A DNA stretch of 64,000 nt from Parasedimentitalea marina (lineage in GTDB: Bacteria > Pseudomonadota > Alphaproteobacteria > Rhodobacterales > Rhodobacteraceae): contig NZ_CP033219.1 in NCBI RefSeq assembly GCF_004006175.1, forward strand, positions 4,340,001-4,404,000, in the 5' to 3' direction. Below, piece by piece: positions 16,542 to 32,892 of the stretch (the stretch's first letter is position 1; every line of letters starts with the position of its first letter). The notes below the pieces were generated by a model. It was not told the origin of the DNA. It saw nothing but the letters and a program-made list of their open reading frames with translations, and made no database searches. Both the position numbers and the translations under genes were made by a program.

Positions 16542-17561
16542 TTAGATATCTTCCAGAAGGATAGTCCGGTTTTCTTCGGCAGACAGAGTGATCGCTTCTA
16601 GAACTTCGATGTTGTGAACCATTTCCTCGGGACTGAACGGATAAACCGTACGCCCCTGCGCTGCATCGACGAATGCCTCAAGATTCCGCGTCACTGCGTC
16701 ATCCCAATCATAGGCTGTTTGCTGAATCGGTGTCCCCGTTCGCGATCGTAAAAACTGTACCTTTCCACCTGGGGTATCCGGGTGAGTGTCATTGAGAACT
16801 TCGATCCATTCTTCGGTTCCGAAGACATGCATCCGGATGAAATGGGGGGTATGCAATACAGCGCTAAGCGTTGCGGTGACGCCGCTTTCAAAGCCAAGCT
16901 GCGCGGTGACAACATCGCCAGTTTCCCAGCCCAAAGATCGACTGGCCGTCATGGCCTGAACCGTCTTGACCCTACCGAAAAACGAGATGAACAAATCGGT
17001 TAGGTGAATACCCATTGCTGTCATACCCGCCGCTGGCGAGACGGCTTTTGATGTGCGCCAATCATCTTTGGGCGTGCCGATCAGCTTGTCGTGGCTAAAG
17101 GCGGCCTCGGCATGCATGATGGTCCCTAATTCGGCTTTGTCCAACGCACTTTTCAACGCCAAAAGCGCGGGTTCAAAGCGGCGTTCGTGACCGATCCCCA
17201 ATTGCACTCCGGCTTTCTGGCAAGCAGCCATTGACCGGCGGGCACTGTCGGCGGTCAATCCAAGTGGCTTTTCGCAAAATACATGTTTGCCCGCATTGGC
17301 GCAGGCGATGACCTGTTCTTCGTGCAGTGGATTGGGGGTGGTCAGAATAGCGGCGTCGACGTCGTCGTGATTGATTGCCTCTTCCAAAGACGAGAATATC
17401 TGCAAACCCATTGCCTGAATATTCGGATGGTTTGCCTCGACGGGCTCGACCACTCCTGCGATATGAATGGTCTTATGGCTTTTCAGGCGGTTGGCAAAAT
17501 GCTTACCCCACCAGCCGAATCCAACAATGGCGACGGAGAATTTATTCGTTGCGGTGCTCAC
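16542..17561 (-). CDS. Gfo/Idh/MocA-family oxidoreductase
   Basis: A 339-residue NAD(P)-dependent dehydrogenase. It has the Rossmann motif VGFGWWGKHFANRL near the N-terminus, the CEKPLGLTADSARR motif with the conserved E-K-P, and a C-terminal beta-sheet substrate domain. Family members act on sugars, inositols and related polyols. The chosen GTG start overlaps the flavin reductase stop (GTGA); the longer ATG-initiated frame would run deep into that gene. It is therefore coupled to the flavin reductase, which is unusual company for this family. Confidence 0.88.
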   Translation of the reverse strand: MSTATNKFSVAIVGFGWWGKHFANRLKSHKTIHIAGVVEPVEANHPNIQAMGLQIFSSLEEAINHDDVDAAILTTPNPLHEEQVIACANAGKHVFCEKPLGLTADSARRSMAACQKAGVQLGIGHERRFEPALLALKSALDKAELGTIMHAEAAFSHDKLIGTPKDDWRTSKAVSPAAGMTAMGIHLTDLFISFFGRVKTVQAMTASRSLGWETGDVVTAQLGFESGVTATLSAVLHTPHFIRMHVFGTEEWIEVLNDTHPDTPGGKVQFLRSRTGTPIQQTAYDWDDAVTRNLEAFVDAAQGRTVYPFSPEEMVHNIEVLEAITLSAEENRTILLEDI

Positions 17562-18070
17562 AGGCTGGCTCCAATTTTCGAGAACTGGCCTTTGTGAAAC
17601 AACAAGGGATTCTTGTCGTCCTTGCTGATGCGGCATACGCGGCCCAGATAAATCTCGTGATCTCCGCCGGCGAAGCGGTCGACAGTCTCACACTCTAAAA
17701 CAGCCGAAGCCTGAGCTAATACCGGGATGCCATTCAGCCCCGTGCGCCAATCAACACCAGCGAATTTATCTTCGGATGGACGTGAGAAGTTCAGAGCCAG
17801 GTCTTTTGACTGGTCGCATAGAATGTTGATGGCAAAAGACGAGTGAGAGCGGAAAGCGGTCAGGCTGGGCGCCTTCAACGACAAGCTCCACAAGATAAGC
17901 GGTGGATCCAGCGATACTGACGAAAATGAGTTAGCGGCGAGCCCGACGGGGGCGCCATTGTCGCCGATCGTTGTGATAATTGTTACCCCTGTTGCGAACT
18001 GGCCCAAGACATCGCGAAGGGCTAAAGGGTCGATGCTCTCGACGCTGAGATCTGTAGCAAGCGCGTTCAT
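17558..18070 (-). CDS. Flavin reductase (FMN reductase of a two-component monooxygenase)
   Basis: A 170-residue flavin reductase-like domain protein of the HpaC/DIM6 type, which uses NAD(P)H to supply reduced FMN to a partner oxygenase. Visible family features are LGQFATGVTIITT near the N-terminus, LAANSFSSVSLDPPLILWSL (flavin binding), SFAINILCDQ and the LVFHKGQF-like LLFHKGQF at the C-terminus. It is divergent from the luciferase-like monooxygenase, its obvious partner, 235 bp away. The intergenic region holds two candidate operators. Confidence 0.92.
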   Translation of the reverse strand: MNALATDLSVESIDPLALRDVLGQFATGVTIITTIGDNGAPVGLAANSFSSVSLDPPLILWSLSLKAPSLTAFRSHSSFAINILCDQSKDLALNFSRPSEDKFAGVDWRTGLNGIPVLAQASAVLECETVDRFAGGDHEIYLGRVCRISKDDKNPLLFHKGQFSKIGASL

Positions 18071-18125
18071 TTTTCTATCCTACTGATACGTTTCAACCAC
18101 AAACATTCATGAGAAATGTCATTTT

Positions 18126-18148
18126 AACAACTTATGAGATCTTATATC
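18126..18148. promoter_or_regulatory. 23-bp element, copy 1
   Basis: The 23 bases here match the minus strand of 23312-23334 at 20 positions. The core is AACAACTTATGAG followed by a second CTTAT one helical turn on. It lies 56 bp upstream of the flavin reductase start, in the divergent promoter region. Confidence 0.6.
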
Positions 18149-18177
18149 TGCTCTCAGTTTTTTTGATGCCGTGATTT

Positions 18178-18190
18178 TTCCGTGACGGAA
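18178..18190. promoter_or_regulatory. Perfect dyad TTCCGTGACGGAA
   Basis: Six-base perfect arms around a single central base, in the divergent region between the flavin reductase and the monooxygenase. A candidate dimeric-regulator site; the regulator is not identified. Confidence 0.45.
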
Positions 18191-18305
18191 GAGTGCTACC
18201 AAGGCTATCTGAATATCTGATAACATACATTAGAAACCATCATTATCTCTGCAGGCTGTCGTCTGACATATTTGAAGAAACTCGAGGTCATGTCCGGAGA
18301 CGCAG

Positions 18306-19403
18306 ATGCAGTTATCATTTTTCACAATGCCCATTCACCCGCTGAACAAGCCTGTATGGCAAAGTATTCAGGAGGACCGTGAAGCATTTATCCTGGCCGA
18401 TGAGCTTGGCTTTGTGGAAGGATATTGCGGTGAGCACACCACGGATCAGGCCGAAATCATCACCTCGACCGTCGCCTTTCTTGCCAGCCTGGCCTATGAA
18501 ACCAAGAATATCCGGTTGGGCACTGGCACAGTAAATCTGCCCAATTCGCATCCCGCACGGGTCGCTGCTGAGGTGGCGATGCTGGATCATATGCTGAAGG
18601 GCCGTTTTAATTTTGGTATTTCGCCCGGCGGGTTGATGTCGGACGCCGAAGTGTTTGGTAACCTTGATAAAGATCGCAACGCTATGTTTATCGAGTGCAT
18701 CAACATGGTGCTGCAGATCTGGGAAGGCAAAGCACCTTACAACTTGCAGGGCGACTATTATTCGGTGACCACCGAGAAAACCATGATGCCGGAAATCGGA
18801 CAGGGCGAATTTATTAAACCCTACCAGGATCCGCATCCGCCGATTGTCGGCACTGTTGTAGCCCCGTACTCTAAGGGTGTTACCGCCATGGCAGCACGTG
18901 GATGGGAGCCGATTTCTGCAAACTTCTTACTGCCCAAATGGGTCGCTACCCATTGGCCAAACTATGCCGAGGGCTGTGCCCAGGGCGGGCGGGAAGCCAA
19001 ATTTGAAAATTGGAGCGTGGCCAAGAACCTCTGTGTCGCAGACGACATGGCAACGGCTAAACGCTATGCCCGCGATCCTAACAGCCCCTATGTTCTGTAT
19101 TTCAAACAACTGCTGACCAAGCTGCGCTCGGGCGGACGATTGAATCTGTTCAAAGAAGATCAGAACATGAATGACGAGGATGTGACGCTAGATTACGTGC
19201 TGGATCGTCTGGTCATTTACGGTGATCCGTCAAGTGTGGCCGATCAGGTTCTGGCCTTCCAAGAGCAGACCGGCCCCTTTGGTAAGTTGGTCTATGCGGG
19301 TCAGGATTGGCTGGACTATAATCTGGGCCGCCGTTCGATGATCTTAATGGCAGAGCAGGTTCTGCCCAAAATCAACACAGCAATTGGGGCGGGTGAACAA
19401 TGA
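18306..19403 (+). CDS. LLM-class flavin-dependent monooxygenase
   Basis: A 365-residue luciferase-like (TIM-barrel) monooxygenase that would use FMNH2 and O2. Family features include GYCGEHTTDQAEI in the early barrel, IRLGTGTVNLPNSHPARVAAEVAMLDHMLKGRF (shown here in description only as the GTGTVNLP and HPARVAAE motifs) and GISPGGLMSDAE. Length and pattern fit the type II Baeyer-Villiger/alkanal group, which needs a separate flavin reductase; that partner is the divergent neighbour. Its stop overlaps the start of a lactonase-like hydrolase (ATGA), consistent with an oxygenase making an ester or lactone that the hydrolase opens. Substrate is unknown. Confidence 0.88.
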   Translation: MQLSFFTMPIHPLNKPVWQSIQEDREAFILADELGFVEGYCGEHTTDQAEIITSTVAFLASLAYETKNIRLGTGTVNLPNSHPARVAAEVAMLDHMLKGRFNFGISPGGLMSDAEVFGNLDKDRNAMFIECINMVLQIWEGKAPYNLQGDYYSVTTEKTMMPEIGQGEFIKPYQDPHPPIVGTVVAPYSKGVTAMAARGWEPISANFLLPKWVATHWPNYAEGCAQGGREAKFENWSVAKNLCVADDMATAKRYARDPNSPYVLYFKQLLTKLRSGGRLNLFKEDQNMNDEDVTLDYVLDRLVIYGDPSSVADQVLAFQEQTGPFGKLVYAGQDWLDYNLGRRSMILMAEQVLPKINTAIGAGEQ

Positions 19404-20215
19404 GCAACCTGGTAACAGGACAGGTGACCACCGCAGGCGGGGTCCGTATCTCATATCAAATCGACGGAGCGGAAGACGCGCCTTGGATCGTGCTTTCTAA
19501 TTCCTTGGCAACGGATCGGCGGGTGTGGGACCCACAGATGGAGGCGCTGACCAAGTCGCGGTGTGTTTTGCGATATGATGCCCGTGGCCATGGTCAAAGT
19601 GGTCCGGGTACACCGCCCTATAATCTGGGCTTGCTTGCAGATGATGTTGTTGCGTTGATGGACCATCTTGGTATCGAAACGGCTGAATTCATGGGCATTT
19701 CACTTGGTGGTATGACTGGCCTGGCCTTGGCAATTGCACATCCGAAACGGGTCAGTAAGCTGATTTGCTGCGATGCTCGAGCCGATTCTCCGGATGCCTA
19801 TAAAGCTATCTGGGACGGGAATATCGCACGCTTGCATGAAAACGGCATCAGTGTCCTATGTGAGCCCACAATGGAGCGTTGGTTTACTGCTGGATTTCTT
19901 GCAGATACGGCGAATTCAGAAACCCTGACCACTGTTCGCTCGATGATCAATACAACTGCTGCCGCAGGGTATGAGGGCGCGGCGCGCGCGCTGCAGAACC
20001 TTGATTTATTGCCCAATCTGCCAAAAATATCCTGTGCCGTTTTATATGCAACTGGTGAGTTTGACATGGCGGCACCTGTGCCGGTTATGCAGGCAATGTG
20101 TGACGCGACTCCGCAGGCTGAGTTCGTTGTGATCGAAGGGGCAGCTCATTTGTCGAACCTGGAACAGCCAGACAGTTTCACCAAAGCCGTTACGGCGTTT
20201 TTGGGTTTGAAGTAA
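19400..20215 (+). CDS. Alpha/beta hydrolase, 3-oxoadipate enol-lactonase-like
   Basis: A 271-residue alpha/beta hydrolase resembling PcaD. The nucleophile elbow GISLGG supplies the catalytic Ser (about residue 100); the early NSLATDRRVWDPQ and RYDARGHGQS motifs and the late catalytic His (GAAHLSNLEQP) match the enol-lactonase group. Coupled to the monooxygenase by an ATGA overlap, so it most likely hydrolyses the lactone or ester formed by that enzyme. No other protocatechuate-pathway genes are present, so a true PcaD role is unlikely. Confidence 0.88.
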   Translation: MSNLVTGQVTTAGGVRISYQIDGAEDAPWIVLSNSLATDRRVWDPQMEALTKSRCVLRYDARGHGQSGPGTPPYNLGLLADDVVALMDHLGIETAEFMGISLGGMTGLALAIAHPKRVSKLICCDARADSPDAYKAIWDGNIARLHENGISVLCEPTMERWFTAGFLADTANSETLTTVRSMINTTAAAGYEGAARALQNLDLLPNLPKISCAVLYATGEFDMAAPVPVMQAMCDATPQAEFVVIEGAAHLSNLEQPDSFTKAVTAFLGLK

Positions 20216-20217
20216 AA

Positions 20218-20253
20218 CTTAGTGGCGGGGAGTACAGGCCACTCGCCACTAAG
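20218..20253 (+). terminator. Stem-loop after the hydrolase gene
   Basis: CTTAGTGGCG and CGCCACTAAG form a 10-bp perfect stem around a 16-base loop immediately after the stop codon. There is no T-run, so it may be a weak terminator or an mRNA-stability element. Confidence 0.55.
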
Positions 20254-20428
20254 GTCCAGCAAGGTTCACAGAATAATCCGAATGGCGAGCTGGCCAGTCC
20301 AATGGTCAGCCCGTGCCTTAGGACGTAGACTGTCTATGGGCAGGCTGAGAACGATGAAAATAGCACCGTCGCAAAATTATTCCACCCAATGAGTAATCGC
20401 GACATTGCCCAACGTCATGGAGAGAGTG

Positions 20429-21226
20429 ATGCCTATAGATGCTCTACCTCAAATAATGGTAGCGCCAAATGGCGCGCGACGCACAACCCGGGATCATCCT
20501 TCAGTGCCGATGCAATTGGACGATACCATCGCCACCGCACTTGCGTGCAAAGCGGCGGGCGCCGGCGGGTTGCATGCTCATGTGCGTGACACTGATGGGG
20601 GGCATATTCTGGATGCAGGTCTGTATTTGGAATTGCTGGCTGAGATGAAACACCGCGCGCCCGATTTTACCGTGCAAATAACGACCGAGGCCGTGGGCCA
20701 ATACACCCCGAAAGAACAACGGGCGCTGGTTACGGCGGTCATGCCAGACTTTGTTTCAATCGCCCTGCGCGAAATGGTAGCAGGCGAAGACGACAAGGAT
20801 CTGTGCAAGTTCTATCACTGGGCCTATGTGTCAGGGATCGGCGTGCAGCATATTCTTTACACCCCTGAGGAAGTCTTGAAACTGGCTTCATTTGTTGAAA
20901 AAGGGGTGATTCCAGCGCAAGATTTGGAAGTACTGTTTGTTCTGGGCAGGTATTCGACCAACCAGCAAAGCAGTGTTTCGGATATGTCGCCATTTGTCGC
21001 CAATGCAACGCAAGTTCTTAAAGATGCTGATTGGGCGTTATGTGCCTTTGGTCAACAAGAAACCTCTTGTCTGGCCGAGGCGGTGCGCCAAGGCGGCAAA
21101 GCGCGGATTGGTTTTGAAAACAATCTGCACAACAGCGACGGGTCAATTGCGGTGGACAATGCGGAACGTGTTCACGAACTGGTTGCCGAACTAAAGCGTG
21201 AAAAATTGGCGGACATGCCAAATTGA
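20429..21226 (+). CDS. Beta-keto acid cleavage enzyme (BKACE, DUF849)
   Basis: A 265-residue TIM-barrel enzyme of the 3-keto-5-aminohexanoate cleavage (Kce) family, which uses zinc and acetyl-CoA to split a beta-keto acid into acetoacetate and a new acyl-CoA. The early APNGARR motif, the zinc-binding HAHVRD motif and the late GFENNLHNSDG segment are typical. The ATG at 20429 has a GGAGAG upstream; a start at 20405 would add eight residues. It sits between the monooxygenase/hydrolase pair and an AEC transporter. A role in the last steps of the same pathway is inference. Confidence 0.9.
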   Translation: MPIDALPQIMVAPNGARRTTRDHPSVPMQLDDTIATALACKAAGAGGLHAHVRDTDGGHILDAGLYLELLAEMKHRAPDFTVQITTEAVGQYTPKEQRALVTAVMPDFVSIALREMVAGEDDKDLCKFYHWAYVSGIGVQHILYTPEEVLKLASFVEKGVIPAQDLEVLFVLGRYSTNQQSSVSDMSPFVANATQVLKDADWALCAFGQQETSCLAEAVRQGGKARIGFENNLHNSDGSIAVDNAERVHELVAELKREKLADMPN

Positions 21227-21234
21227 TCTTTGCC

Positions 21235-22116
21235 ATGGTAAATGTTCTGGCCCCTATCTTTGCTATTACGTTAATTGGTTTTGTGCTTGGGCGATCCAAG
21301 ATTGAACTTCACGCGGGAACGCTCAGCACAACTGTTCTTTTGGTTGCTACGCCTGCGCTGATCTTCTCGTCTCTCACATCCTATGGTGTGACACCCACGA
21401 TGTTGTTGGAAATGGCCGCAGCGGCGATTCTTTGTCTATCGGCTTCTGCCGTGTTGAGCATGCTGACTATCAAGATGTTCGGCTTGTCCATGCGGTCCTT
21501 TCTGCCTAGCCTGATGTTGCCAAATTCCGGAAACATGGGCCTGCCACTGGTCATGCTGGCCTTTGGGGACGAGGGGCTGAAACTGGGCGTGTCCTATTTT
21601 TTTTTTGTTGCGCTTGTCCAGCACTCTGTTGGTTTTTCGATCGCCTCGGGCAGTTATTCTATGAGTCATCTGTTAAAGCAGCCGCTGATCTACGCTGTGG
21701 CTGCGGTGATCCTGGTTTCCACAACAGGGATAGCCGTTCCTGAGGTCGTTTTGACCACCACTGAAATACTTGGCGGAATGATGGTTCCTGCAATGTTGAT
21801 ACTTCTTGGCAGTTCACTGGCGGGGCTAACAATCTCGGACTTAAGGCCGGCGCTCGTCGTGGCTGTCTCCAGACTGGTAATAGGGGTGCTATCCGCACTC
21901 GCTGTCATCTGGGTTTTGGGTTTAGAGGGCAGGGTTGCGGGGGTGGTGTTTTTGCTGTCCACGATGCCAACGGCGATCATAACTTATGTGTTTGCACAAC
22001 GTTACCGCCCAGAACCGGGCCAGATCGCCAGCGCAGTGGTTGCATCAACGCTGTTGACCTTTGGTTGCCTGCCTTTTCTGCTATGGTTTGCGGTAAAAGT
22101 TTTGGAGCAGAGTTAA
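21235..22116 (+). CDS. AEC-family transporter (auxin efflux carrier-like)
   Basis: A 293-residue membrane protein with about ten hydrophobic segments in two halves, matching the Mem_trans/AEC family, whose bacterial members move malonate, malate or other small organic acids. The MLPNSGNMGLPLVMLAFG segment is the conserved Asn/Gly crossover of the first half. The ATG at 21235 is chosen because it gives the usual N-terminus; a TTG at 21223 overlapping the BKACE stop is a real alternative. It probably imports or exports an acid tied to the neighbouring pathway. Confidence 0.88.
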   Translation: MVNVLAPIFAITLIGFVLGRSKIELHAGTLSTTVLLVATPALIFSSLTSYGVTPTMLLEMAAAAILCLSASAVLSMLTIKMFGLSMRSFLPSLMLPNSGNMGLPLVMLAFGDEGLKLGVSYFFFVALVQHSVGFSIASGSYSMSHLLKQPLIYAVAAVILVSTTGIAVPEVVLTTTEILGGMMVPAMLILLGSSLAGLTISDLRPALVVAVSRLVIGVLSALAVIWVLGLEGRVAGVVFLLSTMPTAIITYVFAQRYRPEPGQIASAVVASTLLTFGCLPFLLWFAVKVLEQS

Positions 22117-22199: not shown

Positions 22200-23129
22200 A
22201 TGAAGAATGTAAAAATCCAACACTTGCGGTTCTTTGTTGCTGTCTACGAAGAGAATTCGATAACTGCCGCTGCTAATCGTGTTCATGCCACTCAGTCGGG
22301 TGTCAGCATGCAAATCCGCGACCTGGAAACGATCCTGGGCTTGACCCTGTTTGATCGGGCGTCGACGGGGGTGACACCGACCAAAGCCGGCGATCGGATC
22401 TATTGGCGGGCAACCCGGATTCTGTTGGAAATTGACGAGTTGCAAGAGGATGTCGCAACACATACGGACGAGCTGTATGGCTGTGTTCGGGCGGGCATCA
22501 TGCCAACTTTTGCAAAATCAATTCTGGCTCCGGCCCTGATCAGGTTCTCAGAACAAAATCCCTATGTCGACGTCAAAATTACCGAAGGCTATAGCGAAAT
22601 TCTTACCACCAAAGTCGCAAATGGTGAATTGGACCTTGCTGTTGTCCCAGGTGGCGATATCCCGGTTGGTGTTCGTTCTTCGCATGTTGAAACGGATATA
22701 GAAGTTCTAATTCAAAGATGCACCACTGACAGCCAGTCCCGTGAACTCGTCAATTTGGCTTCCGCACCTCCATTAAAGATTATGCTTCCAGGTCCGGGCA
22801 ATGCGCGCCGCTCCAAAATCGATCAGTACCTTAGCAATTTCTGTGCTTCTGATCATATGATCATGGAGCTGGACAGTATGATGACCACATTGGATATGGT
22901 GAACCGCGGCGAGTGGTCAGCAATTGTCCCTGGGTGTCTGTGTATCGCAAATATTGATGACAAAAATATGCGACTGTCACCGGTGTTGGATCCTCCTCTG
23001 ACCGTCGATTACTTGTTGATCGAACCGATAACAAAAGCGCGAAGCAAAGCAGTACAGGTCTTTGCCGGCGAACTGTGTGATGAAATCGAACGCGGTTGCC
23101 AACAATGCCGAGATCAATTCACTTCATAA
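22200..23129 (+). CDS. LysR-family transcriptional regulator
   Basis: A 309-residue LysR regulator. The N-terminal winged helix (residues about 6-64: LRFFVAVYEENSITAAANRVHATQSGVSMQIRD, given as the NSITAAANRVHATQSGVS core) is followed by a periplasmic-binding-fold effector domain (about 93-300). It faces no divergent gene; it lies after the AEC gene and about 380 bp before the TRAP/TTT operon, so it could act on either block. A copy of the 23-bp shared element lies between it and that operon. Confidence 0.92.
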   Translation: MKNVKIQHLRFFVAVYEENSITAAANRVHATQSGVSMQIRDLETILGLTLFDRASTGVTPTKAGDRIYWRATRILLEIDELQEDVATHTDELYGCVRAGIMPTFAKSILAPALIRFSEQNPYVDVKITEGYSEILTTKVANGELDLAVVPGGDIPVGVRSSHVETDIEVLIQRCTTDSQSRELVNLASAPPLKIMLPGPGNARRSKIDQYLSNFCASDHMIMELDSMMTTLDMVNRGEWSAIVPGCLCIANIDDKNMRLSPVLDPPLTVDYLLIEPITKARSKAVQVFAGELCDEIERGCQQCRDQFTS

Positions 23130-23511: not shown

Positions 23512-24492
23512 ATGACTGTCACTCTCAAATTTGGCGGATACCAAGGGGATCAATCCGTTCATACGCTAGGTGTGCTGGCCTTTTGCGATGCATTGGAACG
23601 ACATTCTGATGGTGAAGTCCGAGTTGACTTTGAGCAAAATATTTCAGCTTCCGGACGTCAGGCTTCTGATTTGTTGTCAATGACGGAAAGCGGAACGCTG
23701 GATGCTTGCTATTTTTCGTCCAGCTATCTGACCAAACGAGTGCCGGATCTGGGCTTGTTCGATCAGCACTTTTTGGCTCCGGATCGTCCCCAAACCTTTG
23801 CGATGCTGGATGGTGCGTTTGGCAAGCAGTTGGCTGCAAAAGTAGAATCGCAAACCGGGTACAAGGTCATGGGGTATTGGGACAATGGCTTGCGCCATAT
23901 CACGTCCGCTAAGGGCCCAATTCGCAGCCCGGATGATTGTCGGGGAATGACGATCCGGACGCTGGCCAACGAAGATCACCAACGCGTCTTTCGGTCGCTT
24001 GGATTTGACCCTGTGACCATCGATGTCAGTGATCTGGCAGACGCGGTCGAGGCGAGGCGTGTTGACGCGCAGGAGAACCCGCTCACAAATACCTATAATT
24101 TCGGACTGCACAAAACCCACAGCCATGTTGTTTTGACCAAACATCTGCTTGGCGTGGCGTTGGTGTTGTTCAACAAAGATAACTTCGCGTCATGGTCGAA
24201 GTCTGTTCAGAAGGCGGTGTCGGCAGCGTTGCAAGAAGCTACTGCGAAACAGCGCCATGCGGCCGTAGCTGACGACATGAGTTGCGCTAAGAACATGCGC
24301 GAACAGGGCGTTGAATTTACCAACCTTTTACCAGAGGAGCGCGCCAAGTTCGTCGCCGCTTCCCGTGACGAGGTTGCGATGATGCGCACAATCTTTGATG
24401 CCGGGTTGCTAGAATTGTTTGACCAAGAGCTGACGAAAACAGCCACAGGGTCCCGGCATCAAAACGAACAAAGATCAGGGAAGAGTGAATGA
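23512..24492 (+). CDS. TRAP transporter DctP-type binding protein lacking a signal peptide
   Basis: A 326-residue protein of the TRAP DctP family. The body is well conserved: KFGGYQGDQSVHT at the very N-terminus, GYWDNGLRHITSAKGPI, and the ligand-binding region VEARRVDAQENPLTN. Normally a 20-30 residue signal peptide precedes this body; here the protein starts directly with MTVTLKFGG and an in-frame TAA lies nine codons upstream, so no leader is encoded. No DctQ or DctM gene is near. Its stop overlaps the start of a TctB gene (ATGA). Either a 5'-truncated exported protein or a cytosolic ligand binder. Confidence 0.85.
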   Translation: MTVTLKFGGYQGDQSVHTLGVLAFCDALERHSDGEVRVDFEQNISASGRQASDLLSMTESGTLDACYFSSSYLTKRVPDLGLFDQHFLAPDRPQTFAMLDGAFGKQLAAKVESQTGYKVMGYWDNGLRHITSAKGPIRSPDDCRGMTIRTLANEDHQRVFRSLGFDPVTIDVSDLADAVEARRVDAQENPLTNTYNFGLHKTHSHVVLTKHLLGVALVLFNKDNFASWSKSVQKAVSAALQEATAKQRHAAVADDMSCAKNMREQGVEFTNLLPEERAKFVAASRDEVAMMRTIFDAGLLELFDQELTKTATGSRHQNEQRSGKSE

Positions 24493-25046
24493 AACTTGCA
24501 GTTTCCAGTGATGGAATGGGGAAAACGGTGATGATAGGGAAACTTAAATTAACCCCTGAATTGGCCGTTGTGGCGGTTCTGATGGTGCTGGCTGGCCTAA
24601 GCGTGGTCTTTATCGGTGCGCTGGTGGCCCCGCCCAAAGTTTTGATGGGTCGGTCGCTAACCGCTATTCCACCTAACTTATTCCCGATTATCGTCCTGTC
24701 TCTTCTGGGGCTTCTATGTGCTGGCTATCTGTATTGGCGCAGTCGGAATGCTGACGTGGGTGAGATTGGTGGTTTCAATTTTCAGGGGTGGGATCGCGCA
24801 GCGGCGCTCTTTGGATTGATGCTTATGTATGCACTGACGATGGAGCCATTCGGCTTTTTGATATCGTCGGCCATTTCACTGGCCCTGATCTCTTGGCTCG
24901 CGGGCAATCGCACAATTTGGCAAATTATCGCCCTGTCACTGATTGGCCCGCCAACCCTGTACCTGCTGGCCACTCGAATTTTGGCGGTGTCTCTGCCCGA
25001 ACTCAGTGCCATCGAATTTGCTTATTCACGCCTGCTGGGAGGCTGA
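24489..25046 (+). CDS. Tripartite tricarboxylate transporter TctB-family small subunit
   Basis: A 185-residue membrane protein with four to five hydrophobic segments (about 28-50, 66-86, 103-123, 128-165), matching the poorly conserved TctB family. It overlaps the TRAP-type binding protein gene by four bases and precedes TctA by 41 bp. In the complex it pairs with TctA to energise uptake of a carboxylate delivered by a TctC binding protein. A start at the second Met (MGKTVMIGK) would also work. Confidence 0.85.
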   Translation: MKLAVSSDGMGKTVMIGKLKLTPELAVVAVLMVLAGLSVVFIGALVAPPKVLMGRSLTAIPPNLFPIIVLSLLGLLCAGYLYWRSRNADVGEIGGFNFQGWDRAAALFGLMLMYALTMEPFGFLISSAISLALISWLAGNRTIWQIIALSLIGPPTLYLLATRILAVSLPELSAIEFAYSRLLGG

Positions 25047-25087: not shown

Positions 25088-26569
25088 ATGCTTGATCAGT
25101 TCCTAGAAGGCTTCGCTATGGCGATGCGCGTGGACACTTTTGTGCTGATGGGGGCAGGGCTGTTTGGCGGAATGCTAGTTGGCGCACTACCTGGTTTCAC
25201 GACTTTGATGGCAATGGCCATCTTGCTACCAATCTCGTTCTTTCTTGACCCGATTGTTGGTATTCCGTTTCTACTGGGCGTCTACAAAGGCGGCATCTTT
25301 GGCGGCAGTATTCCAGCTATCTTGGTCTCGATGCCTGGTACCGGTGCTGCCGTGGCCACGTCGAGGGATGGCTATGCGCTGACCAAACAGGGCAAATCCC
25401 GCAAAGCGCTGGATATGGCACTGTTTTCCTCAGTGTTCGGCGATACCGCCAGCGATATCTTTACAATATTCATGATCTTTCCAATTGCCTTTTTGGTCAT
25501 GCAATTTGGTCCACCCGAACTGTTCGCGGTTCTGTTGCTAAGCCTGGTCATCATTGCCGCTACTTCAGGGTCCAGCACAATGAAAAGCCTGATCATGATG
25601 GCTGTCGGTCTGTGGCTGTCCTTTATTGGCACCGATCCTTTGGGGGGGGTAGAACGGTTTACATTCGGGCTGTTTGATCTGAAGTCCGGCATTCCGCTGC
25701 TGCCGATGCTAATCGGCGTGTTTGCGATCCCCGAGATTGCAGGCGTGGTGATCCGCAATGAAAAAGTGAAACAGCTGGCATCGCTGATGGGCGAACGTCT
25801 GACCTTTCGTGAATTCCGCGCAACTCTGAAGACGATCTGCCGGTCGACGGTTATTGGCACTGGCATCGGCATTATTCCAGGACTGGGGCAAGTGGTTGCC
25901 GCAATGATGGGATATGCGGCGGCCAAAAATGCCTCGGACCATCCCGAGACCTTTGGTCAGGGCGATTTAGAAGGCGTAGCCGCTGCCGAAGCTGCCAATA
26001 ACGCGGTGAATGGGCCGACTATGGTGCCTCTGCTGACACTTGGTATTCCGGGTGACAATGTGACAGCCATTCTGCTGGGCGCCTTTGTGGCCCAAGGCCT
26101 TCGTCCTGGTCCGCAATTGTTCGAAGAGCAGGGGGCCACGGTTTTTGCCATCCTGATTGCCATGGTATTCGCCAACCTGATGTTCCTGGTCATTGGCTAC
26201 CTGTCGATCCCGTTCTTTTCACGGCTGGTCCGGATCAAAACCTCGGTGCTGATCCCCGTGGTGATCATGTTCGCCTTTGCTGGTGCCTATGTGTTCCGGT
26301 CCGACACCTTTGACCTGCTGATGTTGGTTGGATTTGGGATTTTCGGATTGATCGCAAAGGCTGGAAAATTCGATGTCATGCCGATGGTTATGGGATTCAT
26401 CCTCGGCCCGCCAATGGAATACGCTTTCGGTCAGACCATCGCCATGGGGAACGGTTCTACACTCGCATTCCTCTTTGACGAACGGATCGCTGCGCTGATG
26501 ATTTTGGTCGCCACGCCGATGATCGGATTGCTCCTGTGGAGACGGATGAAAACTGTCCCCTCAGACTAA
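25088..26569 (+). CDS. Tripartite tricarboxylate transporter TctA-family permease
   Basis: The 493-residue large permease of a TTT importer with about 12 membrane spans. The two family repeats are visible: GALPGFTTLMAMAILLP near residue 32 and LTLGIPGDNVTAILLGAF near residue 320. The central GTGIGIIPGLGQVVAAMMGYAAAK (residues about 258-281, quoted by its GIIPGLGQ core) is also typical. It is followed, 68 bp on, by its TctC gene. Confidence 0.93.
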   Translation: MLDQFLEGFAMAMRVDTFVLMGAGLFGGMLVGALPGFTTLMAMAILLPISFFLDPIVGIPFLLGVYKGGIFGGSIPAILVSMPGTGAAVATSRDGYALTKQGKSRKALDMALFSSVFGDTASDIFTIFMIFPIAFLVMQFGPPELFAVLLLSLVIIAATSGSSTMKSLIMMAVGLWLSFIGTDPLGGVERFTFGLFDLKSGIPLLPMLIGVFAIPEIAGVVIRNEKVKQLASLMGERLTFREFRATLKTICRSTVIGTGIGIIPGLGQVVAAMMGYAAAKNASDHPETFGQGDLEGVAAAEAANNAVNGPTMVPLLTLGIPGDNVTAILLGAFVAQGLRPGPQLFEEQGATVFAILIAMVFANLMFLVIGYLSIPFFSRLVRIKTSVLIPVVIMFAFAGAYVFRSDTFDLLMLVGFGIFGLIAKAGKFDVMPMVMGFILGPPMEYAFGQTIAMGNGSTLAFLFDERIAALMILVATPMIGLLLWRRMKTVPSD

Positions 26570-26637
26570 TGGTCCAAGCCGCGGCATCAGCTGCTTGGTT
26601 CAAAATACTTCTACAACGATGCAATAGGGAGGAAGAC

Positions 26638-27609
26638 ATGCTTAAATCAACTATCAAACGGGTGGCTGCAACCGCAGTTGCCGCTGGGTTCGCAGTGACC
26701 GCGTCATTGGGAGCAGCCCAGGCAGAGTATCCGGAAAAGCCAATCACTATGGTTATTCCACTGGGGGCCGGCGGCTCGCATGACTTGAATGCACGTGTGA
26801 TCACTTCGATCATTCCTACGTATCTAAATCAGGCGATGATCGTCCGTCTGACACCTGGTTCGGGCGGCCAAAAAGGCACGCAGGAAGTCGCCAATTCGGC
26901 GGCCGACGGGTATACGCTGCTGTTCACGCACAACTATATCGACATGCTTCAGCAGCACGTTGAAAACCTGCCATACGATCCAATGGAAGATTTCATTCCA
27001 ATTGCCCGGGTTAACTATGCGCCTGCTGGCATCGTGGTTCGGGCAGACAGCCCATATCAAACCTTTGACGATCTCGTCGCAGCGGCCCAGGCAAACCCAG
27101 ACTCGATCCGGATGTCGCATTCGGGCAACTGGGGGGCGTTCTTTGTACCTGCAGCTCAGATCATGAAAGCACGGGATTTCAGCTTGAACCTGGTTCCTTA
27201 CAAAGGTGGCGGACCAGCTCTGCAGGCGCTGCTTGCGGGTGATTCCGATGTGACGATGGGCTTCCCATCGACTTTGGGGTCGCTGCTTGATGCGGGGACC
27301 ATTCGGGTTCTGGCAACTGCTGGTTCCGAGCGGATGTTCGACGATGTTCCTACTCTTGCTGAAGTTGGCGTAGAGGGTGACATTGGCTTCATGCACCGTG
27401 TTGTTCTGGCTCCAAAAGGCACGCCGGACGATGTGGTCGCCACCTTGACCGACGCCTTCGGTAAGCTTGTTGAAGATAAAACCTTCACACGTATGATGGG
27501 TCGCTTGAATGAGACCATCGATCTGCTGGATGGAGCGGAATACCAGGCAATGCGTCAAGAGCAGGACGCTGCCTATGCTGACCTCGTCAAAGTTCTGACA
27601 AGCCAGTAA
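26638..27609 (+). CDS. Tripartite tricarboxylate transporter TctC/BUG-family binding protein
   Basis: A 323-residue periplasmic binding protein of the BUG/TctC family. A signal peptide (residues 1-29, ending AQA) precedes YPEKPITMVIPLGAGGSHD, the conserved start of BUG proteins that holds the carboxylate-binding loop; ADGYTLLFTH and VPTLAEVGVEG are also typical. The ATG at 26638 follows GGGAGGAAG; a longer frame overlapping TctA is not supported. It ends at a strong terminator. This is the expected binding partner of the TctAB pair, which makes the extra TRAP-type protein in the operon odd. Confidence 0.93.
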   Translation: MLKSTIKRVAATAVAAGFAVTASLGAAQAEYPEKPITMVIPLGAGGSHDLNARVITSIIPTYLNQAMIVRLTPGSGGQKGTQEVANSAADGYTLLFTHNYIDMLQQHVENLPYDPMEDFIPIARVNYAPAGIVVRADSPYQTFDDLVAAAQANPDSIRMSHSGNWGAFFVPAAQIMKARDFSLNLVPYKGGGPALQALLAGDSDVTMGFPSTLGSLLDAGTIRVLATAGSERMFDDVPTLAEVGVEGDIGFMHRVVLAPKGTPDDVVATLTDAFGKLVEDKTFTRMMGRLNETIDLLDGAEYQAMRQEQDAAYADLVKVLTSQ

Positions 27610-27692: not shown

Positions 27693-28748
27693 TCACAACG
27701 GGGCAACACCCAAGTCTTGCGCCAGCGTGTTCAACACAGCCAACAAGGTAGCTGGCAAGGGAATTCCATGTTCAGATCTTTCCTGTGTCACCTGCGCAAG
27801 CCGCTCTCCGGGCAGACGAATACTATCAAATCCCGGCAGCCGAGGCGAAGATTTCATCTCCTGCCAGATCTTATCAATATCCGATTTGAACTGGGCCGGG
27901 TCGGCAAAGGCCTTGATATCCAGCGCAATCACAAAATGTCCGGTGTTGGTTGTCGTTTCAGAATCCGCGTTGAAATCAACGACCTCACGGCCAAAGGCTG
28001 CGCCGTTCAAGGTGCCCGCGAGAATTCCAAAAATCAGCGACAGGCCATAACCCTTGGGGCCGCCAATAGGCAGCAGAAACCCCTCGGAGGCGCGGTTGGG
28101 GTCGGTCAGCGGTTGACCGTTTTTGTCGATCATCCAGCCTTCGGGCATGGTTTCGCCCCGTTGGGCCGCCGTCTTGACCTTGCCGTAGGCAGCAACTGTC
28201 GTCGCCATGTCCAGAATGATAGGTGGGTTGTTGGTCGACGGCAGAGCAATAGAAATAGGGTTCGTACTCAGCAGCATTTCGGTGCCACCCCAGGGAGGCA
28301 TATGGTTGGCGCTGCCGACGGCCACATAGATGCCAATCATGTCTTCTTCTGCCGGCATCGCGGCATAAAGCGAGGCCGGACCCGCGTGGTTCGAGTGCCG
28401 TGCCCCAACCCAGGCTACGCCGGTGGTTCTGGCTTTCTCCATGGCCAGCTGTGTGGCATGGTTCATGACCAAATGCCCCAACCCGTTGCCACCATCAATC
28501 AAGGCTGTGGCGGCACGCTCTTCAACGGTACGAAACTGCGCGTTGACGTCCAGCCCACCGGCCTGAATGCGGCGGATGTATTGCGGCAGTCGGAAAACGC
28601 CATGCCCATCCTGACCAATAAGATCAGCACGGGCCATCAAGCCCGCCGCCTGCTCTGCATTGGTCTCGGTCATGCCGCATGATCGAAAGCAACGCGCAAT
28701 GAAGGCGCGCAAGTCATCATGGGGCGTCAAGGCGGGAAAATCGGGCAT
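27693..28748 (-). CDS. Ldh-family (malate/L-lactate/ureidoglycolate-type) dehydrogenase
   Basis: A 351-residue NAD(P)-dependent 2-hydroxyacid or imine reductase of the Ldh_2 family (YlbC/ComC/AllD group), structurally unlike classic lactate dehydrogenase. Visible motifs: DLIGQDGHGVFRLPQY with the catalytic His, ARHSNHAGPAS, PWGGTEMLLSTNPISIALP (dinucleotide/substrate region; described by its GGTEMLLSTNP core) and the late GPKGYGLSL. The ATG at 28748 is preferred over an adjacent TTG. It is divergent from a small cupin gene and convergent with the TTT operon. Confidence 0.9.
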   Translation of the reverse strand: MPDFPALTPHDDLRAFIARCFRSCGMTETNAEQAAGLMARADLIGQDGHGVFRLPQYIRRIQAGGLDVNAQFRTVEERAATALIDGGNGLGHLVMNHATQLAMEKARTTGVAWVGARHSNHAGPASLYAAMPAEEDMIGIYVAVGSANHMPPWGGTEMLLSTNPISIALPSTNNPPIILDMATTVAAYGKVKTAAQRGETMPEGWMIDKNGQPLTDPNRASEGFLLPIGGPKGYGLSLIFGILAGTLNGAAFGREVVDFNADSETTTNTGHFVIALDIKAFADPAQFKSDIDKIWQEMKSSPRLPGFDSIRLPGERLAQVTQERSEHGIPLPATLLAVLNTLAQDLGVAPL

Positions 28749-28810
28749 CAAAATCTGCCTTCCTGTGTTTTAAGGCGCAGAGCGCCAATTCAATTGAAAA
28801 GAGGTGAAAC

Positions 28811-29215
28811 ATGTCGAACGGGTTTTCCATCAGGTACCATGAGGTAAATGTATTCAGCAGGGGGGACGGCGTTGAAACCCGTTTGCTTGTGGGTAAGGGC
28901 TGTGCAGATGAGACGCCGTTTACCAGCGGCACAACGGTCTTTCCCAAAGGCTGTGGTGCGCCGCTGCATTCTCATAATTGCGCTGAACAGGTGACCATTC
29001 TGGAGGGCACTGCCGAAGCAATGATCGGCGGGGAGACGATCCAGCTGAGTAAGCTGGATACGTCTTTTGTCCCCGCCAATGCACCGCATTACTTTCGCAA
29101 TACTGGCGATACGCCACTTGTCATTTTGTGGATCTACGGAGCCCGCGATGTGACCCGAACCTTTACCGAGACCGGGGAAACTGTCCCCCATATGTCGTCC
29201 GGCGATCAAGTTTGA
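28811..29215 (+). CDS. Cupin-domain protein
   Basis: A 134-residue single cupin. The two cupin motifs are recognisable: motif 1 around GCGAPLHSHNCAEQVTILEG (with the metal-binding H-x-H and later Glu) and motif 2 around VPANAPHYFRNTGDTP. Such proteins act as small dioxygenases, isomerases or ligand sensors; the function here is not evident. A good AGAGGTGA ribosome site precedes the ATG. It ends at a strong stem-loop shared with the convergent gene. Confidence 0.85.
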   Translation: MSNGFSIRYHEVNVFSRGDGVETRLLVGKGCADETPFTSGTTVFPKGCGAPLHSHNCAEQVTILEGTAEAMIGGETIQLSKLDTSFVPANAPHYFRNTGDTPLVILWIYGARDVTRTFTETGETVPHMSSGDQV

Positions 29216-29228: not shown

Positions 29229-29260
29229 ATACCGCCTAAAGTCAGACCTTTAGGCGGTAT
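29229..29260. terminator. Bidirectional stem-loop between convergent genes
   Basis: ATACCGCCTAAAG and its exact complement form a 13-bp stem with a six-base loop. The right arm lies inside the last codons of the leftward cupin-like gene, whose TGA falls in the loop. Confidence 0.75.
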
Positions 29261-29703
29261 TCGTTCGGGATCGACAATGGTGTGTTGGGACCATCGAGGA
29301 ACTCAACCGTGCAAAACGACAGCATGGTGTCGCCAATGTTCTCAACGGAATGAACCATAGAATCCATCTCGCCATAAGCGAAGTGACGTGTCTCGCCCAC
29401 ATAATGCGTCACATCCCGAATTTCGCCAGAAGAGAAATATCCACGTGCCTTGCCATCTGCGAGGGCGGACCAGAAGTAGGTATTGACGTGACGGTGAAAC
29501 GCACAGCGATTGCCGGGCGCAATATGCAGGTGCCAAACCCGGAGCTTGTCAGTTTCCGAAACCAGAACCGACCCGACAACACCGTTGTCTTGATGCTCGA
29601 GCATCTCGGCATGCATGCCCTCGGGCCAATGGGCAAAGGCGGCAGGATCGGTTGCCATTTCCACGTGGTCGGACCCGTGTGTGGGGATAGATGTATTGGT
29701 CAT
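29242..29703 (-). CDS. Cupin-like hypothetical protein
   Basis: A 153-residue cytosolic protein with a cupin-type beta-barrel pattern: HIAPGNRCAFHRHVNTYFW holds a likely metal-binding H-x-H and GEMDSMVHSVENIGDTML the second motif. No catalytic role is evident. The ATG at 29703 follows an AGGAA site; a longer frame to 29748 overlaps the aldolase gene and is less likely. It is the last gene of the ADH/DHDPS run and its final codons lie within a stem-loop. Confidence 0.75.
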   Translation of the reverse strand: MTNTSIPTHGSDHVEMATDPAAFAHWPEGMHAEMLEHQDNGVVGSVLVSETDKLRVWHLHIAPGNRCAFHRHVNTYFWSALADGKARGYFSSGEIRDVTHYVGETRHFAYGEMDSMVHSVENIGDTMLSFCTVEFLDGPNTPLSIPNEYRLKV

Positions 29704-29744
29704 TTGGACGTTCCTGACAGAATTGGCAAAAGCCGAAGTTGCGA

Positions 29745-30656
29745 TCAAGCGGAGTGCACCGCCGCTAGATCGGCTCGAAATGCGGCCTGTTGATCAGAGG
29801 TGAGGCCAACCAAAGGTGGGCCCATGCGGGTCCAGGTGTCATCGCCGGTTCTCCAGGCCTCGGCCTGTTTCATGGCAGCCATCATCGGATATTTTGACGC
29901 CATCGCCCGCGCTCTTTTTACAGCTGCCATGGCGGTTTCGCGCTCGGGGCCATCGGATGTTTGCAATGCCGTCTGTGCCAGCGCGCCGAATATATTGGTC
30001 GAGCCCGAGATGATACCCGCCGTTCCAATGGACAGACCCTGCCACAGCATCGCTTCAGAGGAAGGGTAAACGTCAAATCCCTCGGAAATGCCGCCAGTAG
30101 CTTCGACAATGGCACGGCTTTGTTCAAAGTCACCGCTGCTGTCTTTTAACCCGGCGATGATGGGACCAAAGGCCTTGCGCAACCGCACCACCAGTTCGGG
30201 TGACAGCGGGGTTTGGGACATCTGCGGAAAGTGGTAAAGATAGACCCGCAGATCATCACTGCCAACCTGTTCGACCAGTCTGGCGTAGGCGGCAAACAAA
30301 CCATCATCGGATACGTTTTTGTAATAGTAGGGCGGCAGCACCAGTACATTACAAAATCCAGCCTCAAGCGCAGCTTTGGTTAATGCAATGCTGTCGCCAA
30401 TTGCTGGCGCACCAGTTCCGAAAATCACTTGATCGGATTTGAACCCAGCGGCTTGAAACGCTTGTGGTAGGCCCAGTCGGTCGCGCATCGCAACAGAACT
30501 GCCTTCGCCTGTTGTGCCGGTAGGGGCAACGCCATCACAGCCACCGTCGGTTACAAGATGGCGGCAATACCCCGTCAGCTTGTCAGTATCGAGCGATCCG
30601 TCCGCGTGGAACGGTGAAATTGCTGCCGCATAGATGCCGCGTTTAGCCTTGGTCAT
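29745..30656 (-). CDS. DapA/KDG-aldolase-family lyase
   Basis: A 303-residue class I aldolase of the dihydrodipicolinate synthase/N-acetylneuraminate lyase family. The pyruvate-binding GTTGEGSS motif (about residues 47-54), the proton-relay Tyr in VYLYHFP and the Schiff-base Lys in IAGLKDSSGD are all intact. Members include 2-keto-3-deoxy acid aldolases and dehydratases. Next to a Zn alcohol dehydrogenase (ATGA overlap) and an FCD regulator, a role in sugar-acid breakdown is more likely than lysine synthesis; this is inference. Confidence 0.9.
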   Translation of the reverse strand: MTKAKRGIYAAAISPFHADGSLDTDKLTGYCRHLVTDGGCDGVAPTGTTGEGSSVAMRDRLGLPQAFQAAGFKSDQVIFGTGAPAIGDSIALTKAALEAGFCNVLVLPPYYYKNVSDDGLFAAYARLVEQVGSDDLRVYLYHFPQMSQTPLSPELVVRLRKAFGPIIAGLKDSSGDFEQSRAIVEATGGISEGFDVYPSSEAMLWQGLSIGTAGIISGSTNIFGALAQTALQTSDGPERETAMAAVKRARAMASKYPMMAAMKQAEAWRTGDDTWTRMGPPLVGLTSDQQAAFRADLAAVHSA

Positions 30657-31852
30657 TGTGATTTACCTTCGGTGATTTGGTCCGTAGTTGCCGTTGGCTG
30701 GCGCATTGAAACAACGACTTTGATAGCGTCATCGATGCGTTCACGCGCGTAGCGTAGCGCAGTTGGCAGGTCTTCCAATGGAAATGTATGTGTGTGGATC
30801 AGGCTGGCATCGAACCGCTTCTCGGCCATAAAGGCCATGGCCCGATGGGTGGCTGATCGGCCCTCGCCACGGATGCCGTACAGGTAGATATTATTGACCG
30901 CCAAGGCCCCCAGATCAAAATTAACGGCTTTCTTGGGAAAGGCGGCCAGACAGATCTTGCCGCCACGATTGGTCATATGCACCGCCTGATTGACGGTTGT
31001 TTCATTGCCGGCGCAGTCGACCACATAGTCCGCACCCTTGCCGGTGATCTCTTTGATCCGGGCGACAACGTCTTCTTCTTTTGGGTTGATGACTATGTCC
31101 GCACCCAGCTTGGTGCCGATCTGGTTGCGGTTTTCGCGGGTGCCAACCAGGATCACAGGCGAGGCCCCAAGGGCCTTGGCCACTGCAACTGCCAGCAATC
31201 CGATAGGTCCCGGGCCAATCACAACGACGCTTTCACCTGCGACCAACCCGCCCAATTCGGTCAGGCCGTACATCGACGTACCGGCAGTAACCACCAGCGT
31301 CGCCTCCTCGTCAGTCATAGTGGCGGGAACGCGGATCATGGTGTTGATGTTGTTCACCGCATATTCGGCAAAGCCGCCGTTGGTGGTGAAGCCATTGGCC
31401 CGATGGCCCTTGTCGGTGTCGCCGTAGTTCAGACCGTAGTTGTGACAGGACGTGTACATGCCCATGCGGCATCGTTTGCATTGGCCGCAACCGGCGTGAA
31501 TTTCAACGGTGACCCGCTCGCCAATTTCAAACTCATCCACACCGGGGCCGAGAGCGGCGATTGTGCCCATATACTCGTGGCCAGGCGTGAACTCTTTGTT
31601 AAAAGGGGCCCCGCCCTCGATCAGGGCAGGGGTGCCGTAAGTCAGGATCTCGAGGTCGGTGGCGCAGATGGCTACCGCATCGATCCGAACCAGTGCCTCT
31701 GAGCGACCAGGGACAGGCACATCCTTAGTTTTCAGTGTTAGCTCTTCTGGATCGCCCAAGACCCAGGCCTTCATCGACTGTGGCACCGGCATTCTGGATG
31801 AGGTGGTGACCCCGTGCCAGCTGGAATCCACGTCTGTATTTTTGATATTCAT
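30653..31852 (-). CDS. Zinc-dependent alcohol dehydrogenase (MDR family)
   Basis: A 399-residue medium-chain dehydrogenase. The catalytic zinc ligands are Cys in AICATDLE and His-Glu in PGHEYMG; the structural zinc site is CGQCKRCRMGMYTSC with four Cys. The NAD-binding motif GPGPIGLLAVAVAK follows. The family oxidises sugar alcohols, threonine or similar substrates. The gene starts 18 bp from a TTGGTCGACCAA operator and diverges from the matching FCD regulator. Its stop overlaps the aldolase start. Confidence 0.93.
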   Translation of the reverse strand: MNIKNTDVDSSWHGVTTSSRMPVPQSMKAWVLGDPEELTLKTKDVPVPGRSEALVRIDAVAICATDLEILTYGTPALIEGGAPFNKEFTPGHEYMGTIAALGPGVDEFEIGERVTVEIHAGCGQCKRCRMGMYTSCHNYGLNYGDTDKGHRANGFTTNGGFAEYAVNNINTMIRVPATMTDEEATLVVTAGTSMYGLTELGGLVAGESVVVIGPGPIGLLAVAVAKALGASPVILVGTRENRNQIGTKLGADIVINPKEEDVVARIKEITGKGADYVVDCAGNETTVNQAVHMTNRGGKICLAAFPKKAVNFDLGALAVNNIYLYGIRGEGRSATHRAMAFMAEKRFDASLIHTHTFPLEDLPTALRYARERIDDAIKVVVSMRQPTATTDQITEGKSQ

Positions 31853-31870
31853 GTCCCGCCTCTTCGATCA

Positions 31871-31882
31871 TTGGTCGACCAA
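31871..31882. promoter_or_regulatory. Palindromic operator TTGGTCGACCAA, copy 1
   Basis: A perfect 12-bp palindrome 18 bp upstream of the alcohol dehydrogenase start. It matches the TGGT-n-ACCA type site of FadR/FCD-subgroup GntR regulators, and the regulator gene is next door. Confidence 0.75.
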
Positions 31883-31966
31883 TATATCGATTCAAAAATC
31901 AATACTTGGACATCGATACAGTGTTTGACCTATGTTAGTATAGACTCAACGAAGGAAGAATATCTG

Positions 31967-32011
31967 ATGCCGGGCATAATCAAAAATGATATCAATTTGG
32001 TCGACCAATGA
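31967..32011 (+). CDS. 14-residue leader ORF upstream of the FCD regulator
   Basis: ATG-started frame encoding MPGIIKNDINLVDQ, with a GAAGGAAG ribosome site about seven bases upstream. Its TGA overlaps the regulator ATG (ATGA). The regulator has no ribosome site of its own because operator copy 2 fills that position, so the leader probably drives its translation by coupling. Confidence 0.5.
   Translation: MPGIIKNDINLVDQ
31997..32008. promoter_or_regulatory. Palindromic operator TTGGTCGACCAA, copy 2
   Basis: Identical to the copy at 31871-31882, centre to centre 126 bp. Its last base is the A of the regulator's ATG, so binding would block transcription of the regulator: a simple autorepression arrangement. 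Confidence 0.75.
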
Positions 32012-32856: not shown

Positions 32857-32892
32857 TGGGTAAAAGGAAGACTTACGCGAAGGAAGTATCGA

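Follow-up and report, generated by a model that had tools for sequence, protein, structure and literature searches.

In the 64,000-nucleotide stretch of Parasedimentitalea marina DNA analysed here (the window; positions 4,340,001-4,404,000 of the 4.42-Mb contig NZ_CP033219.1, in a genome of 5.08 Mb), a luciferase-like monooxygenase (LLM) is part of a real, recurrent and uncharacterised catabolic gene cluster. The cluster is interpreted as a catabolic module, controlled by LysR, that handles a small cyclic organic acid, whose ring would be opened via type II Baeyer-Villiger oxidation and lactone hydrolysis, with a probability of about 0.5. An initial annotation had combined the oxygenase with a flavin reductase, a PcaD-like lactonase and a beta-keto acid cleavage enzyme (BKACE) into a candidate ring-opening route. 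This core idea stands, and the oxygenase, of type II Baeyer-Villiger affinity, forms a recurrent unit with the flavin reductase and the enol-lactonase-like hydrolase; the wider pathway drawn from the neighbouring operon does not stand and the cleavage enzyme needs another explanation, so that the annotation is partly supported.

Gene organisation of the cluster

To the right of a PanE-like reductase gene, a Gfo/Idh dehydrogenase and the flavin reductase are encoded on the minus strand, followed divergently on the plus strand by the LLM, the PcaD-like hydrolase, the BKACE-family protein, an AEC carrier, a LysR regulator, DctP, TctB, TctA and TctC. The cluster extends rightwards to LysR, DctP-TctBA-TctC and an Ldh_2-family dehydrogenase:

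16542..17636, minus strand: Gfo/Idh/MocA-family dehydrogenase (GFO1), core member (PF01408, 91 bits)
17558..18070, minus strand: flavin reductase, 170 aa, presumed reduced-flavin source for the LLM (PF01613, 133.6 bits)
18071..18305: divergent intergenic region, 235 bp; contains conserved blocks, some of them dyad-like, presumed to be LysR sites
18306..19403, plus strand: LLM, 365 aa, oxygenase component (PF00296, 131.9 bits)
19400..20215, plus strand: PcaD-like alpha/beta hydrolase, presumed (enol-)lactonase (TIGR02427, 242.1 bits)
20429..21226 (called from TTG 20405), plus strand: BKACE-fold zinc enzyme of a non-canonical subfamily (PF05853, 163.7 bits)
21223..22116, plus strand: AEC-family (auxin efflux carrier type) transporter (PF03547, 75.6 bits)
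22200..23129, plus strand: LysR-type regulator (PF00126 and PF03466)
23512..24492, plus strand: DctP-type (TRAP) solute-binding protein, overlapping tctB (PF03480, 209 bits)
24489..25046, plus strand: TctB small permease subunit (PF07331)
25088..26569, plus strand: TctA large permease subunit (PF01970, 434 bits)
26536..27609, plus strand: TctC solute-binding protein (PF03401)
27693..28751, minus strand: Ldh_2-family (malate/sulfolactate/ureidoglycolate type) dehydrogenase (PF02615, 390 bits)

The divergent arrangement of flavin reductase and LLM was confirmed, on the minus and plus strands across 235 bp, and so was the coupling of the LLM to the hydrolase, whose open reading frame (ORF) begins at 19400 within the LLM stop codon. 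Next come, as annotated, the BKACE-family gene and then the transporter, the AEC gene lying just past position 21226, where the annotated interval ended. The Gfo/Idh dehydrogenase had been placed in the neighbouring operon; instead it lies on the other strand, its ORF overlaps that of the flavin reductase, and it is conserved with the latter as part of the core. Since the Rossmann domain starts only at residue 33 of the called GFO1 protein, its true start is probably downstream of the called ATG. For the BKACE-family gene, ATG 20429, four bases behind GGAGAG, is a more likely start than TTG 20405.

Conservation of the gene set

Contigs of named genomes were scanned with an alignment of five LLMs, and the best 80 of 546 LLM relatives were taken as loci, comprising 35 close loci (L022-L056, LLM identity 74-94%) and 45 distant loci (L057-L101, 63-68%). 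As controls, 36 stretches were used: 20 came from the same genome (all 20 kb long except one of 13 kb), and another 16, each of 20 kb, were taken from four relatives. Homologues were counted at E<=1e-10, at least 50% coverage and at least 35% identity unless stated otherwise; 50 of the 80 LLM loci are longer than 20 kb, and the occurrence counts are lower bounds.

The search of other genomes that the initial annotation had suggested showed that the core recurs. Flavin reductase, PcaD-like hydrolase, GFO and LysR were found jointly in 21/35 close and 10/45 distant loci and in 0/36 controls. Taken singly, LysR was present in 32 close and 23 distant loci (0/36 controls, 1/36 without identity limit), the flavin reductase in 31 and 24, the PcaD-like hydrolase in 31 and 23, and GFO in 24 and 17 (24/35 and 15/45 at identity of at least 40%), the last three with 0/36 controls. 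The remaining genes were concentrated in the close loci: BKACE-family protein (22/35 close, 3/45 distant), AEC (21/35, 0/45), TctB (18/35, 0/45) and TctC (16/35, 0/45), all with 0/36 controls, and TctA (19/35, 0/45, 2/36 controls). DctP was found in 8/35 and Ldh_2 in 10/35 close loci, both with 0/36 controls. In the nearest relative (L022, LLM identity 94%), the order GFO-FlvRed-LLM-PcaD-BKACE-AEC-LysR-DctP-TctB-TctA-TctC is identical, and an MCP receptor and a GMC oxidoreductase stand left of GFO. Otherwise the neighbours differ from locus to locus.

The spread of the LLM is patchy. Of 295 genomes sampled from the family, 22 have it at E<=1e-120, counting that of the window, and at E<=1e-60 it was found in 0 of 7 genomes of the same genus. 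On a plasmid of Marinovum algicola, an LLM with 76% identity was observed together with flavin reductase, LysR, TRAP and PcaD-like genes. No paper on this gene set was recognised among those listed by searches of the open-licence literature, and "undescribed" is limited to that literature.

Several side observations were made on these loci. An OsmC-family gene (40% identity) was present in 20/35 close loci, for example L023-L028 and L031, about 0.9 kb past the LLM and often between the PcaD and BKACE genes, where the window has just about 190 bp. An LLM copy with 77% identity carries one in-frame TAA (G182:C23:79724-80812), and that cluster is possibly decaying. On plasmid p2 of Paracoccus methylovorus (L008), a 54% LLM relative stands with an acetolactate-synthase-like thiamine pyrophosphate enzyme, a flavin reductase, an SDR, an Asp/Glu racemase and an aldehyde dehydrogenase, perhaps another uncharacterised pathway. 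The thiamine pyrophosphate enzyme brought riboflavin catabolism (PMC12746152) under consideration.

Oxygenase, flavin reductase and hydrolase

The best relative of the LLM by sequence in the Protein Data Bank (PDB) is 3,6-diketocamphane 1,6-monooxygenase (DKCMO), with 86 bits (phmmer) and about 23% identity. With an AlphaFold2 model of the LLM (mean predicted local distance difference test score, pLDDT, of 85), structures 4uwm/5aec of the same enzyme occupied ranks 1-4 (TM-score 0.81-0.82), and sulfonate monooxygenases (MsuD/SsuD) appeared first at rank 37. Three stretches of the model (residues 45-51, 109-121 and 363-365) have pLDDT under 50, so the shape of the active site in the model is unreliable. 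Fourteen residues pre-picked as invariant, including His44, were unchanged in 81/81 copies. Sequence and predicted fold thus point to type II Baeyer-Villiger affinity of the oxygenase, and two hallmarks of a type II Baeyer-Villiger monooxygenase (BVMO) are present: a fold nearest to that of a characterised member and a separate flavin reductase (31/35 close loci), which presumably feeds reduced flavin to the LLM. The system resembles that of DKCMO in the LLM fold, the best sequence and structure match, the separate flavin reductase and the lactone product to be expected; it is unlike it in the identity of about 23% and in having reductase, enol-lactonase-like hydrolase and acid carriers in one cluster. 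As a side observation, in eight loci (L038, L040, L042, L043, L046, L048, L049 and L053) the ORF of the flavin reductase has a median length of about 318 aa and includes an extra part, compared with 170 aa in the window; the NCBIfam model for the p-hydroxyphenylacetate hydroxylase reductase has a length of 309.

The PcaD-like hydrolase scores 242.1 bits against TIGR02427, just under the equivalog cut-off of 255.85. Its best PDB match is 3-oxoadipate enol-lactonase (2xua, 171 bits), followed by a probable hydrolase (3om8, 143 bits); named esterases of the same fold reach 104 bits and lower. The triad Ser101/Asp222/His250 was kept in 55/55 copies. The substrate would be a lactone or enol-lactone. 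The TIGR02427 score, the intact triad and the match to 2xua are shared with PcaD 3-oxoadipate enol-lactonase, whereas the score below the equivalog cut-off and the coupling to an LLM set the protein apart, and no further protocatechuate gene was found among the scanned window neighbours. A plain ending from PcaD through 3-oxoadipate to BKACE was rejected, with the window BKACE copy far below the 3-oxoadipate cut-off; the genome has a BKACE above that cut-off elsewhere (L141, 495 bits against 350).

BKACE-fold enzyme without the catalytic glutamate

The protein has the fold and zinc ligands of the BKACE family; the cleavage step of the initial annotation is doubtful, since the catalytic glutamate is absent from the subfamily. 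PF05853 matches with 163.7 bits (cut-off 24.8), and four NCBIfam models with 50-87 bits (cut-offs 350-725). The model (pLDDT 94.5) is closest in fold to Kce (TM-score 0.81), then to other DUF849/BKACE proteins and then to cis-epoxysuccinate hydrolase. Residues were aligned with Kce numbering, which we take to be the chain index minus 6. Zinc ligands H57, H59 and E238 (Kce H46, H48 and E230) were present in 33/33 subfamily rows, and Arg226 was also kept. In contrast to canonical members, the position of Kce E143 is occupied by Ile in 32 and Leu in 1 of the 33 rows (Ile150 in the window), and the changes D231 to N, E141 to Q and G84 to E were observed in 33/33. Since the window copy and one further gene each occupy two rows, there are 31 distinct members; L035 and L037 (cut by contig ends), L178 (degenerate) and L170 (an outlier, position 143 being M and position 231 being D) were left out. 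In the degenerate copy (L178:9842-10597), both zinc histidines are replaced, by R and Y.

Canonical rows carried E143 in 33/33 and D231 in 32 (one X); this set comprises Kce, 3no5 and 31 genome copies, mostly the top-scoring copy among the matches listed per genome, and does not sample the family at random. The genome has four further BKACEs, all of them canonical. In BKACE15 of Paracoccus denitrificans, Glu171 was proposed as the catalytic base, and its replacement by Leu abolishes activity and by Asp leaves 5% (PMC11961710). Glu171 was equated with Kce E143 by the equal spacing of 83 residues to a conserved Arg, a spacing that 21 of the canonical rows have, and not by an alignment of BKACE15. 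Compared with the BKACE family (Kce, BKACE15, 3-oxoadipate:acetyl-CoA acetyltransferase), the window enzyme thus shares TIM-barrel fold, zinc ligands and Arg226, and differs in having Ile for the catalytic Glu, Asn for Asp231 and Glu for Gly84. Because the catalytic base is missing in the subfamily, the reaction is not readable from the family name.

A relative of the window's copy (E<=1e-45) was found in 77/295 family genomes, namely in 11/22 with the LLM (9 within 10 kb) and in 66/273 without it; the enzyme is therefore linked to the cluster, neither confined to it nor constant in it. The altered residues were checked in 7 of the 77 genomes: six carry them (G000, G011, G012, G019, G020 and G023), and the copy of G014 is degenerate. 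In genomes lacking the LLM, the subfamily member adjoins a class-III aminotransferase in three of five domain-scanned neighbourhoods (L172, L173 and L177, from G020, G001 and G023); in L175 and L176 the single neighbour tried had no domain match, and the gene lengths of L174 match those of L173 in mirrored order. The aminotransferase neighbours fit oxo-acid substrates, in a separate use of the same enzyme.

Regulation

In the 235-bp divergent region, blocks conserved between the window and nine relatives were seen by alignment, for example around TATCTGAATATCTGATA and CATTAGAAACCATCATTATC. Two of the blocks appear dyad-like in the alignment, and LysR may bind at these blocks. A scan for consensus promoters and terminators performed no better than on shuffled DNA.

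Proposed pathway and alternative explanations

The following substrate, order of steps and reactions are proposed. The DctP/TctBA/TctC and AEC carriers would bring the cyclic acid into the cell, the flavin reductase would hand reduced flavin mononucleotide to the LLM, and the LLM would insert one oxygen in the type II Baeyer-Villiger manner, converting the ring to a lactone or enol-lactone that the PcaD-like hydrolase would open. The Gfo/Idh dehydrogenase may oxidise or reduce a hydroxyl, either on the ring before lactone opening or on the chain after it, and the BKACE-fold zinc enzyme may act on the resulting oxo-acid, by a route other than the standard acetyl-CoA-dependent cleavage. BVMO affinity, a lactonase-like partner and organic-acid-type carriers in the close clade suggest a carbocyclic acid as substrate. 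The idea of this chemistry is not new, since a SAR202 study proposed type II BVMOs and lactone opening for marine organic matter (PMC5395668).

Several findings weigh against this proposal. The case for BVMO activity is one of resemblance, with an identity of about 23%, and N-heterocycle enzymes occur in the distant loci of this LLM, which fits another chemistry. The BKACE-family gene was not found in 13/35 close and 42/45 distant loci, some of them cut by contig ends, and 11/22 family genomes with the LLM have no relative at E<=1e-45; with this gene so often not found beside the LLM, the last step is not fixed. The GFO dehydrogenase could also act at several points.

The N-heterocycle enzymes are the basis of a rather unlikely alternative, in which the LLM opens a pyridine- or pyridone-type ring and the PcaD-like protein hydrolyses a lactone- or amide-like product. 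In the Rut system, an LLM (RutA) and a flavin reductase (RutF) open the uracil heterocycle. TgnA/TgnB is described as opening the trigonelline ring (PMC8269262). The LLM and flavin reductase pairing is common to both systems and the window. The distant loci were enriched in the following enzymes relative to the controls: molybdenum hydroxylase large subunit (17/45; 0/36 controls at 40% identity, 1/36 without limit), iron-sulphur subunit (16/45; 1/36), PuuE-allantoinase-like hydrolase (19/45; 0/36), HsaA-like two-component hydroxylase (12/45; 0/36) and 2,6-dihydroxypyridine-hydroxylase-like enzyme (8/45; 0/36; best PDB match 2vou, E 7e-47). The query proteins were drawn from these loci, so each count (identity of at least 40%) includes its own locus. 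In the 35 close loci, however, the enzymes were not found, save in L055 (iron-sulphur subunit and another molybdopterin protein), nor were they found among the window genes scanned (8.8-38.4 kb). Unlike in the Tgn and Rut systems, neither an aldehyde dehydrogenase nor an amidase of that type was present among the scanned window genes, and the Rut models score far under their cut-offs (RutD 99.2 bits against 238.5, RutF 73.5 against 254.75). Homarine was also considered, as Mgd is tied to this compound in a cited report (PMC13390433); the Pfam matches of the scanned window genes gave no hint of Mgd, and no search aimed at Mgd was made.

It is improbable that no ring is opened at all and that the LLM turns an acyclic or exocyclic ketone into an ester for a matching esterase. 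An LLM-type Baeyer-Villiger enzyme converting progesterone to testosterone acetate is reported in PMC12239570, and esterases of the same fold come next among the matches of the hydrolase; the latter is nearer to the enol-lactonase and to 3om8 than to any named esterase, and the carriers suggest a small acid, against the ester reading. Less probable still is that the LLM is a desulfonase or unrelated reductase and that the catabolic genes around it form a loose island. Functions differ widely among LLM enzymes and the neighbours vary between loci, but a type II BVMO ranked first by both fold and sequence, and the joint recurrence of the four core genes in the close loci, absent from the controls, argues against a loose island. 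On the structural ranking given above, SsuD and MsuD are not the nearest relatives, and the LLM does not resemble a desulfonase.

Returning to the Baeyer-Villiger module, the common core may act on more than one type of ring. Tentatively, an undescribed alphaproteobacterial ring-opening pathway is suggested in which one oxygenase-hydrolase-dehydrogenase core would act on a carbocyclic acid in one clade and on N-heterocycles in others, and in which the zinc enzyme would have a new activity of the BKACE superfamily, its catalytic acid shifted from position 143 to the new invariant glutamates E95, E123 and E219 (window numbering).

Neighbouring and peripheral genes

By domain scans, the left-hand neighbours are, from left to right, an FAH hydrolase (minus strand) and then GntR, an NMT1-type ABC importer, an AMP-dependent acyl-CoA ligase and the PanE-like reductase (plus strand), forming an operon-like group of their own (8825-16402). 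The importer, ligase, PanE-type reductase and FAH hydrolase had been counted among the pathway parts, a role rejected on their lack of linkage to the LLM in the 80 loci. With no identity limit, none of the 80 LLM loci has the NMT1 binding protein or the PanE-like gene; the ligase was found in 1/80 (28% identity) against 5/36 controls, and nowhere at 35%; FAH in 2/80 against 1/36 (close/distant/control 0/1/1 at 35%); GntR in 3/80 against 0/36 (2/1/0 at 35%); and the ABC ATPase in 27/80 against 17/36 (0/11/3 at 35%). Each ABC permease was found in 3/80, under 35% identity, against 0/36. On these counts, the left-hand neighbours are regarded as bystanders.

Within the transporter genes (23512-27609), DctP of the TRAP type overlaps tctB, yet the transporter has its own TctC, giving two binding-protein families for one permease pair. 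An ORF at 27666 (plus strand), antisense to the Ldh_2 gene, had no Pfam match. Further right lie:

28811..29215, plus strand: cupin protein, peripheral (PF07883)
29242..34869: peripheral genes identified by Pfam, in order cupin-like (minus), DHDPS-like aldolase (minus), Zn-dependent dehydrogenase (minus), GntR (plus), second Gfo/Idh (plus) and HIBADH-like (plus)

The cupin was present in 8/35 close loci and 0/36 controls, DHDPS in 2/35 and the second GFO in 8/35 close loci, and membership of the 29242-34869 genes in the cluster is weak. The cupin-like protein of this group had no Pfam match and was named by eye, and the Zn-dehydrogenase scored 202 bits against the threonine 3-dehydrogenase and 190 bits against the scyllo-inosose 3-dehydrogenase model, both under cut-off. 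In Monaibacterium (L038) and Yoonia (L042), the same group likewise adjoins the LLM.

Implications

If the proposed reading is true, the cluster would provide a testable bacterial route for opening small cyclic acids. The BKACE-fold subfamily is a protein group annotated as "beta-keto acid cleavage" that does not have a residue shown to be necessary in one member, and if other relatives carry the same changes, automatic BKACE annotation would mislead the reconstruction of pathways.

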